DNA of 23,384 bases from a virus (IMGVR_UViG_3300035698_020631:1-23384); one strand, 5' to 3'; counted from the stretch's first letter, positions 4,840 through 9,736 are shown. Numbers and translations are program-made. Notes: a model not told the origin generated them from the sequence alone.

Positions 4840-5693
4840 GCCACAAGGCCACCAACTGGGCGATCCAGCAGCGCGGGTTGATGCCTGTGACCAAGCTTGT
4901 GCTCTGGTATCTCTGTGACCGGCACAACCCGGATTTCGGGTGCTTCCCGTCGCAGGACCAGTTGGCGGCCGACGCCGAAATTTCCCGTGCCTCGCTGAAT
5001 GTCCACCTCGACAAGCTGGAAATGGCCGGGCTGATCCGTCGGCACCGGCGTGTGGACGAGGCCACCCGCAAGCAGAAATCCACCCGTTATGTCCTCGGCT
5101 TTGAGGATGATTTCGATCGCGAGCCATGTCCAGAATCTGGACATGGAAAACCCCAAAAGCCGTGTCCAGATTTTGGCAAAAGCCGTGTCCAGAATCTGGA
5201 CACTAACCTTGTAAGAGAACCTGTAACTACTACCGCGCGTGAGGCAGACGAAAACGCCGATGCCGAAGGGGCTTGCCTCGCTGCTTGTGGTGACGGGCTG
5301 AGCCAAACATCGCGGACCGCGATCATCGCGACCCGACCGGTGATCGATGCCTGGCTGGCAGCAGGTTACGATCTGAAGGCCGATATCCTGCCCACCCTGG
5401 CCGAGCGGACCAAGCGCAAGCGCGCCGACCCGATCCGGACGTGGGGATATTTCACGATGGCGATCGCGAAGCGCCATACCCAGAGGGTGGCGCAGACGGC
5501 AACGGCGAAAAATGCTGAGAAAGCAAAAGCTGCCGCAAAGGCCAGCCCGGCTGAAATTCTGGCGTTCACTGCCGACTGGATCAATTCCGACAAATACGTG
5601 CCCCCCAGCGCTGTGTCGAACACCATGCGCGACGCGTTACTGGCAGCCGGGCTTGTGACCGAGGCCGCCTTGCGCGCCCGCCAGCTTTATTGA
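4836..5693 (+). CDS. HTH replication-initiator-like protein
   Basis: 285 residues. The N-terminal 1-90 form a winged helix-turn-helix of the HTH_36 type: FGCFPSQDQLAADAEISRASLNVHLDKLEMAGLIRRHRR, followed by a strand reaching STRYVLGF. Residues about 95-130 are a low-complexity linker (PCPESGHGKPQKPCPDFG, then VQNLDTNLVREPV) encoded by three DNA palindromes. The C-terminal part contains an Ala/Lys-rich helix and ends with NTMRDALLAAGLVTEAALRARQLY. Proteins with this HTH plus a repeat-bearing linker occur in phage and plasmid replication regions, comparable in layout to lambda O, which carries the origin inside its gene. The ATG overlaps the upstream stop by four bases. The HTH domain is secure; the replication role is an inference from position and repeats. 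Confidence 0.75.
   Translation: MSHKATNWAIQQRGLMPVTKLVLWYLCDRHNPDFGCFPSQDQLAADAEISRASLNVHLDKLEMAGLIRRHRRVDEATRKQKSTRYVLGFEDDFDREPCPESGHGKPQKPCPDFGKSRVQNLDTNLVREPVTTTAREADENADAEGACLAACGDGLSQTSRTAIIATRPVIDAWLAAGYDLKADILPTLAERTKRKRADPIRTWGYFTMAIAKRHTQRVAQTATAKNAEKAKAAAKASPAEILAFTADWINSDKYVPPSAVSNTMRDALLAAGLVTEAALRARQLY
5125..5203. repeat. Palindromic iterons inside the initiator-like gene (candidate replication origin)
   Basis: Three TGTCCAGA-based units begin at 5127, 5163 and 5186. The first is a perfect palindrome with 10-base arms around A5135 (5125-5145). The third is perfect with 9-base arms (5185-5203). The middle one is degenerate on its right half. The third unit is read in a different codon frame from the first two (VQNLD against CPESG/CPDFG), so conservation is at the DNA level. 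This is what iterons bound by the encoded initiator would look like. Confidence 0.6.
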
Positions 5694-5712
5694 ACCCCGA
5701 GGAAGGACCACC

Positions 5713-6234
5713 ATGACCCTGACACCCCGCGATATCGAGGACCGCTTTGACGAGGCCGCCTATACCCTGCGCCGCCTGCCCGAGAAGGACCGGCCACGTG
5801 GCTATGGCTCGTCGTGGCCGCCCATCTTGCAGGAGGCCAAGCACGCCTATGGCTACACGCCCGAGGCCCCGATGCGGGTGATCCCAAGCGCTGCCGCGAT
5901 CACCCGGATGGAGGAATGCTTCGACTGGCTGATGCTGATCGATCCCCAAGACGCACGGATCGTCTGGCTGCGGGCGGACGGCATGCGCTGGCGCCAGGTC
6001 TGTATCCGCGCCGGTGTGGTGAGATCGACCGCCTGGCGGCGCTGGGTGGCCGCACTTCTGACGATTGCAAAGAAGCTGAATTCCCAAACGAAAACAAAGC
6101 GCAAGCTGAAGGTGCCGCAGCTTCCGGTTTCCACACCCGGCGCAATCCCGCGCGAAAGCGTGGTGAACACGCAGGATAACCCGCAAGACACGTTGAACTT
6201 CAGGCGAGACATTTCTTCCGGTTCTGAGGCATAA
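5713..6234 (+). CDS. DUF6362 family protein (HTH-containing)
   Basis: 173 residues, with a strong GAGGAAGGA ribosome-binding site before the ATG at 5713. The pattern RFDEAAYTLRRLP...GY...WPPI...YGY....R..PSAAAITRMEECFDWL..IDPQDARIVWLRADGMRWRQVCIRAGVVRSTAWRRW is that of DUF6362, a family common in alphaproteobacterial prophages. Residues about 78-120 resemble the paired helices of sigma-70 region 4 or small HTH proteins, so it may bind DNA as an early or middle regulator. The last 50 residues are low-complexity and charged (KKLNSQTKTKRKLK) and less conserved. It lies 19 bases after the initiator-like gene, in the same operon. The family assignment is from memory of the motif; the molecular function is unknown. 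Confidence 0.78.
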   Translation: MTLTPRDIEDRFDEAAYTLRRLPEKDRPRGYGSSWPPILQEAKHAYGYTPEAPMRVIPSAAAITRMEECFDWLMLIDPQDARIVWLRADGMRWRQVCIRAGVVRSTAWRRWVAALLTIAKKLNSQTKTKRKLKVPQLPVSTPGAIPRESVVNTQDNPQDTLNFRRDISSGSEA

Positions 6235-6256
6235 AAGCGATAGGCTGGTGGAACAT

Positions 6257-6376
6257 ATGGGCGACAGATCGCCCGCTTCCCCAGGTCCATATCGGGCGCT
6301 GCCCCCCTCTCCCCCGGCCTTGGTTCCACCCTGGCCGGACCTGTATGCGGGGGGCAGAGGCGCGGTAAGTCTCTAG
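6257..6376 (+). CDS. Possible small proline-rich ORF
   Basis: An ATG at 6257 opens a 39-codon frame ending in TAG at 6374-6376. The product is proline-rich (YRALPPSPPALVPPWPDLY). The ribosome-binding site is weak (GGTGG). It fills part of an otherwise empty gap, and the biased PP/SP composition could come simply from GC-rich sequence. I have no family match, so treat it as uncertain. Confidence 0.28.
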   Translation: MGDRSPASPGPYRALPPSPPALVPPWPDLYAGGRGAVSL

Positions 6377-6607
6377 CGTCAAACATTTTTTCTGGGTTCG
6401 CGCCTTGGGTGCGCACTCTTGGGTTCGCAGGTACGCACCCCTCCCTCGGGAGATAGAAACGCAGGGCCATGCCGCCCGTAAGCCGGACGACGGGCCGGGG
6501 CTGACGCTCCGGCCCGTGATCATTTCTGAAGTTGCTCCGGGTGCTGCTCGCCCCGTGAGCCGACACCGGTCCGGCGCGTGATCCCTGACGCGTCGGACCG
6601 GATTTTG
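6377..6607. other. Non-coding gap before the ParB-like gene, with short repeats
   Basis: TGGGTTCGC occurs twice (6393-6401 and 6420-6428). GGGTGCG (6407-6413) pairs with CGCACCC (6434-6440) across a 20-base loop, and a T-run lies at 6385-6391. These may be regulatory or packaging-related, but no known site is recognisable. Together with 6235-6256 and the weak ORF, this is the longest gene-poor stretch of the early region. Confidence 0.35.
6490..6517 (+). terminator. GC-rich hairpin, possible weak terminator
   Basis: ACGGGCCGG (6490-6498) pairs perfectly with CCGGCCCGT (6509-6517) around a 10-base loop. It is followed by GATCATTTCT, which has only a short T-rich stretch. It could end the early operon before the ParB-like gene or be an attenuating structure. 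The stem is certain as sequence; its function is not. Confidence 0.4.
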
Positions 6608-7414
6608 ATGGAGGACCACCCCTTGCAGATCGACATGATGCCAACCTCCCGGCTGGTGCCCTACATCCGCAACGCCCGTACCCATTCCGCCGATCAGGTG
6701 GCGCAGATTGCGGCCTCGATCGCCGAATTCGGGTTCACCAACCCTATCCTGATCGGTGAGGACGATGTGATCATCGCCGGGCACGGACGGTTGATGGCGG
6801 CGCAGACCCTCGGGCTCACAGACGTGCCGGTGATCGTTCTGGATCATCTGTCCGAGGCCCAGCGCCGCGCCCTGATCCTAGCTGACAACCGGATTGCGGA
6901 AAACGCCGGGTGGGACAACGCGATGCTGGCCTCGGAACTGGCTGCCCTGCGTGACGAAAACTTCGATCTGGACATGATCGGCTTTGACGAAGCTGAACTG
7001 GACGAATTGCTGGCGGGGTTTGAATTTGGTGATGCCGGTGCGCTGGGCGGCGAAGGTCATGACGGCGGTATTGGTGGTAACGACGCCCCACCGGCCGCAT
7101 CGTCCTCCGGCAGTCTGGCTGTCCGCTTCGGCATCCCACCGTTCTCGATCCACGATGCCCGCAAAGGCTGGTGGCAAGATCGCAAACGCGCCTGGCTGGA
7201 TCTCGGCATCCGGTCAGAACTGGGCCGCGGCGAGGGCGATCGCGCCTGCCCGGGCGGCAGCCCGATGCCGGGCAACGGGTCGCGCAAGGACTACAAGCCC
7301 GGCGCGGCCAAGGCGTTTAACGATGGCGCGGTCCTTGGCGGCGGCGGTCTGGCCGATCAGGTCGCCAAGGCGGCAACAGCCCGCCGTCAAAAGAAGGAAG
7401 CCACACATGGCTAA
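6608..7414 (+). CDS. ParB/Srx-type nuclease-fold protein with methylase-associated C-terminal motif
   Basis: 268 residues from the ATG at 6608. The N-terminal ParB/sulfiredoxin fold spans about 5-105. It has RLVPYIRNARTHSADQVAQIAASIAEFGFTNPILI, the IIAGHGRLMAA box (GHGR) and ALILADNRIAENAGWD. It lacks the HTH half of a partition ParB, so chromosome partition is unlikely. After a Gly/Ala-rich linker comes a motif, LAVRFGIPPFSIHDARKGWWQDRKRAWLDLGI.SELGRG, that I associate with phage DNA methylase proteins, where it sits at the methylase N-terminus. The gene overlaps the methylase gene by eight bases, which supports joint function. Start choice is uncertain: GTG 6578 is possible, and TTG 6623 has the best ribosome-binding site (GGAGGA at 6610-6615). 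Confidence 0.8.
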   Translation: MEDHPLQIDMMPTSRLVPYIRNARTHSADQVAQIAASIAEFGFTNPILIGEDDVIIAGHGRLMAAQTLGLTDVPVIVLDHLSEAQRRALILADNRIAENAGWDNAMLASELAALRDENFDLDMIGFDEAELDELLAGFEFGDAGALGGEGHDGGIGGNDAPPAASSSGSLAVRFGIPPFSIHDARKGWWQDRKRAWLDLGIRSELGRGEGDRACPGGSPMPGNGSRKDYKPGAAKAFNDGAVLGGGGLADQVAKAATARRQKKEATHG

Positions 7415-8360
7415 ATCCCCCGCCCGCACCTTTGGCCAAGACCTGATGCGCGGCGAGCATGTGGTTGGCGGCGACAAGACCAACGGCGGCGTGCTGATGC
7501 CGTCGCACACCTCAGGTGATCCAAGCTTTTATGCCAAGAAACGCGCCAAAGAGGCAGAACTGGGCCATGAATTGACCACCGAAGCCTTCCTCGCGGATCA
7601 CTACCAAGCCTCAGACGCCCCCGCGGCATCGGGCACATCAATCTTCGATCCAGTCCTTTGCGAAATCGCCTATCGCTGCTTCTGCCCGCAGGGCGGCACC
7701 GTACTTGATCCCTTCGCTGGCGGATCGGTGCGCGGCATCGTCGCCTCCCAGCTTGGCCGGGCTTACGTTGGAATAGAATTGCGGGCCGAGCAGGTCGCCG
7801 CCAATCAGGTACAGGCGGCGCTGGGCGCAGGCCCGGCACCGGAATGGATCACCGGCGACAGCCGCGAAATCGCCACGTTGGCAAAAGACGTGGACGCCGA
7901 TCTCATATTCAGCTGCCCGCCTTATTGGAACCTAGAGGTCTATTCCGACAATCCAGCCGACCTATCCACGCTCGGAAAAGATGCGTTCTTCGAGGCCTAT
8001 GCCCGGATCATCGCCGGAGCGGTGTCCCGCCTGCGCGACGACCGCTTCGCCGTCTGGGTGATCGGTGATGTCCGCGATGCGGGCGGGTTCTTCGTCAACC
8101 TGCCCGGCAAAACGGTTGAGGCCTTCGAGGCCGCAGGAGCCCGGTTCTACAATGATGCAATCCTTGTCACGGCGGTGGGATCGCTGCCAATCCGCGCCGG
8201 GCGGCAATTCGAGGCCTCGCGCAAGCTGGGCCGGACCCATCAAAACGTGCTGGTCTTCTGCAAGGGCGATCCCAAGCGCGCCACTGAGGCGATCGGACAG
8301 GTGGAATTCGGCGAAATCGACGAGGCTGATGGCACCAGTGAAGAGGCTCCCCAAGAATGA
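7407..8360 (+). CDS. DNA methyltransferase, N6-adenine or N4-cytosine amino type
   Basis: 317 residues. Motif I is LDPFAGGSVRGIVASQLGRAYVGIEL (100-125, SAM-binding). Motif IV is IFSCPPYWNLE (167-177), the S/D-PPY/W signature of amino-methylases that modify N4 of cytosine or N6 of adenine. Motif I precedes motif IV. The start ATG at 7407 follows AAGGAAG, and longer in-frame extensions upstream only overlap the ParB-like gene. Its stop overlaps the next start (ATGA, 8357-8360). No endonuclease gene is adjacent, so it is probably a solitary phage methylase protecting phage DNA or part of a modification cassette with its neighbours. Which base and site it modifies cannot be read from the sequence. 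Confidence 0.88.
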   Translation: MAKSPARTFGQDLMRGEHVVGGDKTNGGVLMPSHTSGDPSFYAKKRAKEAELGHELTTEAFLADHYQASDAPAASGTSIFDPVLCEIAYRCFCPQGGTVLDPFAGGSVRGIVASQLGRAYVGIELRAEQVAANQVQAALGAGPAPEWITGDSREIATLAKDVDADLIFSCPPYWNLEVYSDNPADLSTLGKDAFFEAYARIIAGAVSRLRDDRFAVWVIGDVRDAGGFFVNLPGKTVEAFEAAGARFYNDAILVTAVGSLPIRAGRQFEASRKLGRTHQNVLVFCKGDPKRATEAIGQVEFGEIDEADGTSEEAPQE

Positions 8361-9061
8361 CCGCCCCAATCGTACAAACCCATTCCGGGATCTGGGTGGT
8401 CCGTGATGACCTACACCCCGGCGGCACCAAAGCTCGCTTCATTGGCCGCATGTTCGACGGTGTTCAGGAAGCCGTCTATGCCAGTCCGCCCGAAGGCGGC
8501 GCCCAAACCGCCCTGGCGCATGTCGCCCGGGCGCTGGGCAGAAAGGCGACGATCTTCGTGGCGCAGCGTGCCAAGCCGCACGCTCGGACGCTGGAAGCGG
8601 CGCGGCTGGGCGCAAAGGTTGTGCCGGTGTCGCCGGGATACCTCACCGTCGTGCAGAGCCGGGCCCGCCAGTATTGCCGTGATACTGGGGCTTCGTTGAT
8701 CCCGTTCGGAGCAGATATCCCTGGCGGCATAGAGGCGATCGCCGAAGCGGCGCTGGCAACCGGGCTTCAACCAGACGAGGTTTGGTGCGCGGCGGGATCG
8801 GGCGTTTTGGCGCGCGGTCTGGCGCTGGCATGGCCAAAAGCCCGGCGGCACGTGGTGCAGATCGGGCGGGAACTGGCGCCGAAAGACGTCGCCGGGGCTC
8901 GGATTCACGTTTATCCACGCTCATTTGGGCAGATAGCGATCATGGGTGCGCCCTTCCCGGCAGATCAACACTATGACGCGAAGGCATGGGAATTGTGCGT
9001 GGCGATGCGCGGGCCGGGGCGAGTGCTGTTTTGGAATGTGGCGCCGTTACCTCGGGGCTAA
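8357..9061 (+). CDS. PLP-dependent lyase-like protein (fold type II) of the phage methylase cassette
   Basis: 234 residues. W13-VVRDDLHPGGTKARF-28 matches the 'KRDDL..GGNK.R' block of the ACC deaminase/D-cysteine desulfhydrase family, with K25 at the PLP-lysine position. EGGAQTALAHVARALGRKATIF (about 47-68) parallels their GG.QSNH..A.A..A..LG block, with the SNH residues replaced. WCAAGSGVLARGLALA (about 143-158) matches the glycine-rich phosphate loop. At 234 residues it is about a hundred shorter than the metabolic enzymes, so it is a minimal version. Substrate is unknown. The four-base overlap with the methylase gene implies coupled expression and a shared pathway; hypermodification of DNA bases by PLP enzymes is known in other phages. 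That link is inference, but the fold assignment is fairly secure. Confidence 0.7.
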   Translation: MTAPIVQTHSGIWVVRDDLHPGGTKARFIGRMFDGVQEAVYASPPEGGAQTALAHVARALGRKATIFVAQRAKPHARTLEAARLGAKVVPVSPGYLTVVQSRARQYCRDTGASLIPFGADIPGGIEAIAEAALATGLQPDEVWCAAGSGVLARGLALAWPKARRHVVQIGRELAPKDVAGARIHVYPRSFGQIAIMGAPFPADQHYDAKAWELCVAMRGPGRVLFWNVAPLPRG

Positions 9062-9169: not shown

Positions 9170-9736
9170 ATGCAGCCACTACAAATGCTCGTTTACCTGC
9201 AAGAGGTTTCGACCGCAGCAGACATGGGAGTAGCACTAAGAAACAATTTCCTCCGGCTCGTCGCAAATGAGGAAGAACGGCAAAATATCACTGTTTGGCT
9301 GATGCTCCAAGCTGCACTGTTGCACTATGGAATGGTGTCGAAATTCATTTTCCCGGTGGCGCAAGCTGGCAAGACCGGATTGGATAGAGGGGCAGCATTA
9401 CGGGCCGAACTCGGAATTGAGGACACCAGCCCGCTGAACAATCGTGACGCCCGAAACGCACTAGAGCATTTCGACGAGCGAATCGATCAGTGTATCGAGC
9501 GTCCAGATTCCGGAATCCTCCAAATGATTTTCGAAAATCGGGCTGGCTACGAATATCTTGCGGCTGATCGCTGGGTGGTTCGCAGGGCATACATAATCGA
9601 CGAAGATATATTCGTTACCGAGGGTCCAAGGGGAAGAGGACGGGTGGAAATGCCACTAACCGATATCTTTGACGAGCTTGAAAAAATCGCAGCCCATGCG
9701 GAACACAGATTGGATGGCAAATTCAAAATGTATTGA
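9170..9736 (+). CDS. Accessory (moron-like) protein with HEPN-type RxxxxH motif
   Basis: 188 residues of an unrecognised family, with GGAG about eight bases before the ATG at 9170. It is predicted to be mostly helical in the first 110 residues. There, NRDARNALEHFDERIDQCIE (91-110) contains R95-N-x-x-x-H100, the RX4-6H signature of HEPN ribonucleases, in a context (RN.LEH.DER) resembling HEPN helix motifs. The C-terminal third has strands and charged segments (YIIDEDIFVTEGPRGRGRVEMPL). The gene is visibly more AT-rich than its neighbours, has its own upstream palindrome, and ends convergently with the leftward cassette. These are marks of an acquired accessory gene, perhaps for host or superinfection control. 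The motif alone is not proof of RNase activity. Confidence 0.6.
   Translation: MQPLQMLVYLQEVSTAADMGVALRNNFLRLVANEEERQNITVWLMLQAALLHYGMVSKFIFPVAQAGKTGLDRGAALRAELGIEDTSPLNNRDARNALEHFDERIDQCIERPDSGILQMIFENRAGYEYLAADRWVVRRAYIIDEDIFVTEGPRGRGRVEMPLTDIFDELEKIAAHAEHRLDGKFKMY

Follow-up and report, generated by a model that had tools for sequence, protein, structure and literature searches.

A phage gene trio of ParB-like protein, amino-methyltransferase and PLP enzyme as a proposed split DNA-modifying enzyme

A virus sequence of 23,384 bases from IMG/VR, referred to here as the window, carries three overlapping genes that encode a ParB-like protein, an N4-cytosine/N6-adenine-type methyltransferase (MTase) and a PLP enzyme (PALP), with terminase, portal, capsid and tail genes to their right. 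We consider it probable, with appreciable doubt, that this trio is a split phage DNA-modifying enzyme acting as one complex, for which we propose a protective hypermodification of bases. Profile matches identify its parts as a ParB domain joined to the N-terminal segment of the MTase, the body of the N4-cytosine/N6-adenine-type MTase, and a PLP enzyme that looks catalytically intact. In related phages the same parts occur as a single polypeptide, in which the PLP domain lies inside the MTase beside its cofactor site.

The gene trio and its parts

An earlier reading of the window, made from its sequence only, described three overlapping genes, and the coordinates of the open reading frames bear out both the genes and their overlaps of 8 and 4 bases (Table 1). 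All three products pass their Pfam cut-offs, for ParB_N (PF02195), N6_N4_Mtase (PF01555) and PALP (PF00291), respectively. The ParB-like protein comprises an N-terminal ParB domain and, at its C-terminus, the N-terminal segment of an MTase, and it matches the PHROG profiles phrog_15396 (E 1e-95) and phrog_498 (E 4e-58). Its residues 164-203 align with positions 24-63 of phrog_12517, the start of a phage methylase family, and its C-terminus also aligns with the middle of the fused family phrog_498. The methylase is thus divided between two genes, as the sequence-only reading had proposed and as one-protein relatives confirm. Microcystis phage Mae-JY30 has a trio split in the same way. The ParB domain and N-segment are on an ORF separate from the MTase body in 21 of 77 PALP-linked loci and in none of 151 partnerless or SpeD-type loci, all fused, a count biased toward fused matches, since most of the queries used for partnerless loci were themselves fused.

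The MTase scores 42.7 bits against the PF01555 cut-off of 26.7 and matches phrog_12517 with an E-value of 2e-127. It contains the motif I (DPFAGGSVRG) and the (S/D/N)PP(Y/F) motif IV (SCPPY) that characterize N4-cytosine and N6-adenine MTases, and motif I precedes motif IV in the sequence. In the motif IV region C170, PPY, L176, E177, Y179 and S180 are invariant in 44 relatives. The best solved relative of the core is the putative modification methylase TTHA0409 (2zie), which the MTase profile matches (E 1.5e-14) in two pieces and in swapped order. As judged from this alignment, the MTase family is a circular permutation of CcrM/PvuII-like enzymes. The comparison with thymine hypermodification made in the sequence-only reading found no support in these tests, the family being an amino-methylase (PF01555, 2zie).

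Table 1. Coordinates of the trio, of its motifs and of related features (positions in the window unless a locus is named)
Feature	Position	Strand	Remark
ParB-like gene	6608-7414	+	GTG start at 6578 also possible
MTase N-segment SGSLAVRFGIPPFS...RKRAWLDLGIRSELGRG	7097-7228	+	same polypeptide as methylase in other phages
MTase gene	7407-8360	+	ATGGCTAA, overlaps ParB-like gene by 8 bases
Motif I, DPFAGGSVRG (SAM loop)	7707-7736	+	FAGGxxRG/A pattern in relatives
Equivalent of PALP insertion point	7815-7841	+	ZS04, R6L, Pam4, L311-L313, L315/L321, L316, L348
Motif IV, SCPPYWNLEVYSD	7911-7949	+	conserved in 44 relatives
PLP enzyme gene (PALP)	8357-9061	+	ATGA, overlaps MTase gene by 4 bases
K25, Schiff-base lysine of GGTK	8429-8431	+	invariant in 67 relatives
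G147-S148-G149, PLP-phosphate loop	8795-8803	+	>90% conserved in 67 relatives
Y206-D-A-K209 tail motif	8972-8983	+	K209 invariant; Y206, D207, A208 >90%
Asp_Arg_Hydrox-like ORFs	L171:4428-5576, L185:2728-5484		between MTase and PLP enzyme; additional N-terminal domain

The PLP protein reaches 49.4 bits against the PF00291 cut-off of 35 and matches phrog_7093 with an E-value of 8e-65. The sequence-only reading had called it very short; this holds for its length, 234 residues against about 325 in solved relatives, but not for its fold, which the AlphaFold2 model (pLDDT 97.1, pTM 0.92) renders as complete rather than minimal. A Foldseek search with this model gave the ACC deaminase homologue 1j0a at a TM-score of 0.83 on query length, and the nearest structures are D-cysteine desulfhydrase, 1j0a and threonine deaminases. 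By this model the protein is a complete fold-type II domain despite its short length. The best match of the family's sequence profile is again 1j0a (E 2.7e-8), and the kinship to ACC deaminase and D-cysteine desulfhydrase suggested earlier is borne out by profile and fold alike; a PDB search with the single protein sequence returned one spurious match only. The name threonine dehydratase, taken from PHROG, was rejected as a literal function (best NCBIfam score 31.2 bits, cut-off 331).

Among 67 PLP sequences down to 20% identity, R16, D17, D18, G23, K25, G94, G170, K209 and W226 are invariant. The sequence-only reading had named loss of K25 and of the phosphate loop in relatives as evidence against itself; both were looked for in these 67 relatives and both are kept. 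The lysine and the phosphate loop, like the fold, are common to 1j0a and D-cysteine desulfhydrase (4d8t/4d9e), from which the window protein differs in its length, its link to a DNA methylase and its substrate loop. The VHSNHAF segment of 1j0a, which includes the SNH carboxylate loop, aligns with aegyaq in the family profile, and the SNH-type loop of ACC deaminase and D-cysteine desulfhydrase is thus absent in this alignment. Because the usual carboxylate-binding Ser/Asn loop is replaced, the substrate cannot be read from the sequence. The replaced loop could suggest that the PLP protein is catalytically dead and contributes structure or specificity to the methylase as one of its domains, but K25, RDD and the phosphate loop are kept across very divergent members, and we regard this explanation as very unlikely. 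Very probably, therefore, the protein is a functional fold-type II enzyme whose substrate is unusual; its Schiff base is assigned by homology.

Fused forms and co-occurrence with the methyltransferase

Scans of IMG/VR yielded about 400 loci (L-numbers) in 263 groups that have no exact 100-mer in common. Erythrobacter phages ZS04 and R6L and Pseudanabaena phage Pam4 encode the ParB, MTase and PLP domains in one protein of about 810-830 residues (ZS04_7, R6L gp1 and Pam4_70), and several metagenomic phages likewise encode all three as one polypeptide. These proteins have the same three parts as the window trio, fused, and the PLP domain interrupts the MTase: the match to the MTase comes in two pieces, with the PLP match occupying the space between them. 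The motif I/II half of the MTase ends (EQVxANRxQ) just before the insert, and the WxxGDS strand that precedes motif IV follows it; the insertion point is at core-profile positions about 119-124 in ZS04, Pam4, L311, L312, L313, L315/L321, L316 and L348. This point is beside the SAM site of the MTase. The halves of TTHA0409 run in the opposite order to those of this MTase, and the insertion point is the permutation junction, where the CcrM/PvuII-like relatives have their chain ends. Two other arrangements were observed: in L399 the PALP is joined as a C-terminal fusion, and in Mycobacterium phage AlanGrant (same species as Vincenzo) a ParB-MTase (gp1) overlaps the gene of a more distant PLP protein (gp2). 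The model of the fused L312 protein has a pTM of 0.64 and its best 50 fold matches are PLP enzymes only. The single-polypeptide forms give the functional PLP-methylase unit proposed in the sequence-only reading stronger support than a reader of one sequence could have had.

An amino-MTase was located within about 4 kb in 97 of 111 non-redundant PALP groups. It lies directly upstream in 53, downstream in 17 (with the order ParB-PALP-MTase where inspected), 0.6-4 kb upstream in 15, in the same ORF in 10 and convergent in two. The expectation that would have weakened the proposal, a PLP gene found mostly without the methylase, is therefore contradicted. Most PALP loci came from PALP queries, which are blind to the methylase, and a minority from MTase scans, which favour co-occurrence; in the first PALP scan alone, the MTase was adjacent in nearly every locus with sufficient flanking DNA. 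In GTDB genomes the MTase is directly upstream in 10 of 13 PALP hits (Rhodobacter, Paracoccus, Ancylobacter, Sinorhizobium and others). The 14 remaining PALP groups include three at contig ends and several in which the gene is near other PF01555-type genes (L393, L397, L352, L338, L354 and L377).

In some phages, L364 (2053-3927, 4669-5928), L360 and L389, the PLP gene lies between large genes without Pfam matches, and L364 has a divergent amino-MTase upstream. In L352, a single ORF (5499-8648) near the PLP gene combines a family A DNA polymerase (DNA_pol_A) with a preceding N6_N4_Mtase match that is weak (E 0.007) and below cut-off, and the large ORFs of L338 and L354 have MTase-like matches similar to that of L352. 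A distant PLP-family member (31% identity) occurs in a Candidatus Magasanikbacteria MAG (L413:3959-4654), where no methylase was detected within 4 kb on either side.

Counted from the MTase, 77 of 236 groups have a PALP nearby, eight have it in the same ORF, 51 have a SpeD gene and 100 have neither, and the ParB-MTase architecture is unchanged with or without PALP. On a FastTree tree of the MTases the PALP label changes 34 times, at least 10 of which are forced by well-supported branches, and the link between PALP and MTase has thus been gained or lost repeatedly. The 100 groups without a partner might suggest that an ordinary phage methylase happens to adjoin an auxiliary metabolic gene unrelated to it. 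We find this highly improbable: the PALP is inserted into the MTase domain itself, it has re-associated with the MTase repeatedly and in different gene orders, and it is absent from all 54 whole records of partnerless phages that were searched for a PALP elsewhere, with L185 as positive control.

Partner enzymes and the proposed chemistry

A sister MTase clade (L079-L158, with L005 and L010) has a SpeD gene directly after the MTase gene, often overlapping it. Croceibacter phage P2559S (L005) and Pseudomonas phage ZRG1 (L010) are examples in which the same type of MTase overlaps this S-adenosylmethionine decarboxylase. Motif I reads FAGD[TS]xFG in 51 of 51 SpeD-linked MTases and FAGGxxR[GA] in nearly all of the others; the FAGD pattern was used in the scan that yielded most of the SpeD loci, which biases their number and not the link to SpeD. 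On a tree from which motif I was excluded, there is one change of the FAGD state against four of the SpeD link. This is consistent with a single clade and three losses, and the correlation therefore has no independent replication. SpeD was found elsewhere in none of 45 partnerless or PALP records, including those of FAGD loci without an adjacent SpeD. An E. coli speD mutant regains spermidine when supplied with the SpeD of P2559S (PMC9992855); this SpeD thus makes decarboxylated SAM. AdoMet decarboxylase is the commonest phage polyamine gene, and only one of the phages studied also has a spermidine synthase (PMC9992855). A simple reading is that the MTases of the SpeD clade are candidate DNA aminopropyltransferases using decarboxylated SAM. 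Phage base modifications made from SAM derivatives were reportedly already predicted by Iyer et al. in 2013.

A third type of partner is an aspartyl-hydroxylase-like oxygenase. An Asp_Arg_Hydrox gene or domain stands directly before the PALP in five loci (L171/L290, L164, L351, L350 and L185), the L185 copy being a domain fused to the ParB-MTase. The Pfam model PF05118 was run on L171 and L185, and the other loci were recognized by a profile built from those two. The oxygenase is rare, with three of 40 PALP-containing records against none of 40 partnerless ones, and L190 has an Asp_Arg_Hydrox-type gene with no PALP in the DNA of the locus. Downstream of partnerless MTases mainly terminase and small unknown genes were observed, the aspartyl-hydroxylase-like gene being the sole recurrent enzyme partner. 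PAPS-reductase/PP-loop genes were also considered as a third partner and set aside, since they are not enriched (two of 40 PALP against four of 40 partnerless records).

We propose that the three proteins assemble on phage DNA into a single complex. In it, the MTase part would bind a base with an exocyclic amine and alkylate it from SAM, the PLP part would act on an amino-acid group retained within that complex, at or near the MTase site, and the product would be a hypermodified base that shields the phage genome from restriction. SpeD, fold-type II PLP enzymes and aspartyl hydroxylases all have alpha-amino acids or their derivatives as usual substrates, which favours the amino-acid end of SAM as the raw material. 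In the likeliest chemistry that we can propose, still a tentative one, the MTase would transfer the 3-amino-3-carboxypropyl group of SAM instead of the methyl group, and the PLP part would act on the product. The resulting DNA-bound alpha-amino acid would form an aldimine as substrate of the PLP part, in some phages after hydroxylation by the aspartyl-hydroxylase-like oxygenase; in the sister clade, decarboxylated SAM would come from SpeD and the outcome would be aminopropylated DNA.

The presence of a PALP leaves no strong mark on the MTase sequence. The FAGGxxRG/A motif I is present in 84 of 85 PALP-linked and 96 of 100 partnerless MTases, and the two groups differ neither in this motif nor in any strongly discriminating alignment column. 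In related enzymes motif I touches the methionine part of SAM. The MTase sequences of the PALP group thus hint at no unusual donor. The unchanged SAM loop suits a partner that acts after the MTase step, or on its by-product, and this makes the removal of S-adenosylhomocysteine (SAH) a serious rival to the main reading. According to this rival, methylation is all that the MTase does, and the PLP part acts as a C-S lyase which breaks down SAH or another by-product of SAM, so that a genome-wide methylase would remain uninhibited by virtue of a lyase beside its SAM site. D-cysteine desulfhydrase is indeed among the nearest folds, the PLP insert adjoins the SAM loop, the MTase stays the same when PALP is gained or lost, and PALP also occurs near other amino-MTase subfamilies. 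However, the rival leaves the aspartyl-hydroxylase-like gene between MTase and PALP unexplained, and SAH is normally cleared already by other host enzymes; we judge it unlikely.

The PLP part might instead make aminoacrylate from serine or an activated serine and add it to the base amine presented by the MTase, a beta-replacement of the kind known from cysteine synthase. The sequence and fold matches of the PLP part include cysteine synthases, O-ureidoserine synthase and SbnA, and the ParB domain matches the serine kinase SerK very weakly, with an E-value of 0.025 that is far below cut-off. The best PLP matches are lyases and deaminases, however, not synthases, the ParB-MTase architecture is the same whether or not a PALP is present, and the SAM motif of the MTase is normal, which together render this grafting of an amino acid quite unlikely.

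Relation to known systems and possible significance

The phage PALP (phrog_7093) and the ParB-MTases (phrog_498) are already known families. The ParB-methyltransferases of phrog_498 and phrog_12517, such as Enterococcus phiFL3A gp36 and Listeria B054 gp77, have the same ParB domain, linker and MTase core as the window proteins. They are single polypeptides with no PLP partner, whereas in the window ParB and MTase come from separate genes, with a PLP gene coupled to these. The GenBank names of the proteins fused to a PLP domain are only 'DNA modification methylase', 'DNA methyltransferase' or 'PLP-dependent enzyme', and the paper on R6L describes ORF 1 only as a CcrM-like methylase (PMC5463345). 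A search of full-text literature, mostly non-subscription papers, did not find a PLP enzyme built into a DNA methyltransferase.

The closest parallel is in phage S-B43, whose MTase homologue CmoX attaches a carboxymethyl handle to DNA from carboxy-SAM; the same study found CmoA linked to no N4/N6 candidates (PMC12783734). Both systems have ParB-domain proteins nearby and an MTase homologue that uses more than the methyl group of SAM, as shown for CmoX and only proposed for the trio. CmoX is a C5-cytosine enzyme acting with Cx-SAM, whereas the window trio combines a PLP enzyme with an MTase of the PF01555 family, which does not have the C5-cytosine methyltransferase fold.

The PLP-methylase unit is possibly a new chemical class of DNA modification. 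In a more general form of the proposal, which we put forward as a possibility only, the ParB-linked MTase family would place the amino-acid side of SAM, and not the methyl group, on the amines of DNA bases. The group added would be aminocarboxypropyl with SAM and aminopropyl with decarboxylated SAM from an adjoining SpeD, and the PLP enzyme, with or without the aspartyl-hydroxylase-like oxygenase, would yield further processed forms. If this is true, DNA modification would gain a new chemical class, and the many phage SpeD genes that lack a spermidine synthase would have a purpose. Phage base modification would then carry amino-acid chemistry, and the enzymes would be useful for DNA labelling. 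Phages of both the PLP type and the SpeD type exist in culture.

Among PADLOC models, the ParB and MTase proteins match only general methyltransferase models and one mad2 model, and the PLP protein of the trio matches none. A 188-residue ORF at 9170-9736, directly after the trio, has an NCBIfam match below cut-off only and no significant match to Pfam, PHROG or PADLOC models. The window also encodes, at 971-2032, a C5-cytosine DNA methylase (PF00145, E 2e-53), which is a second methylase of this phage.
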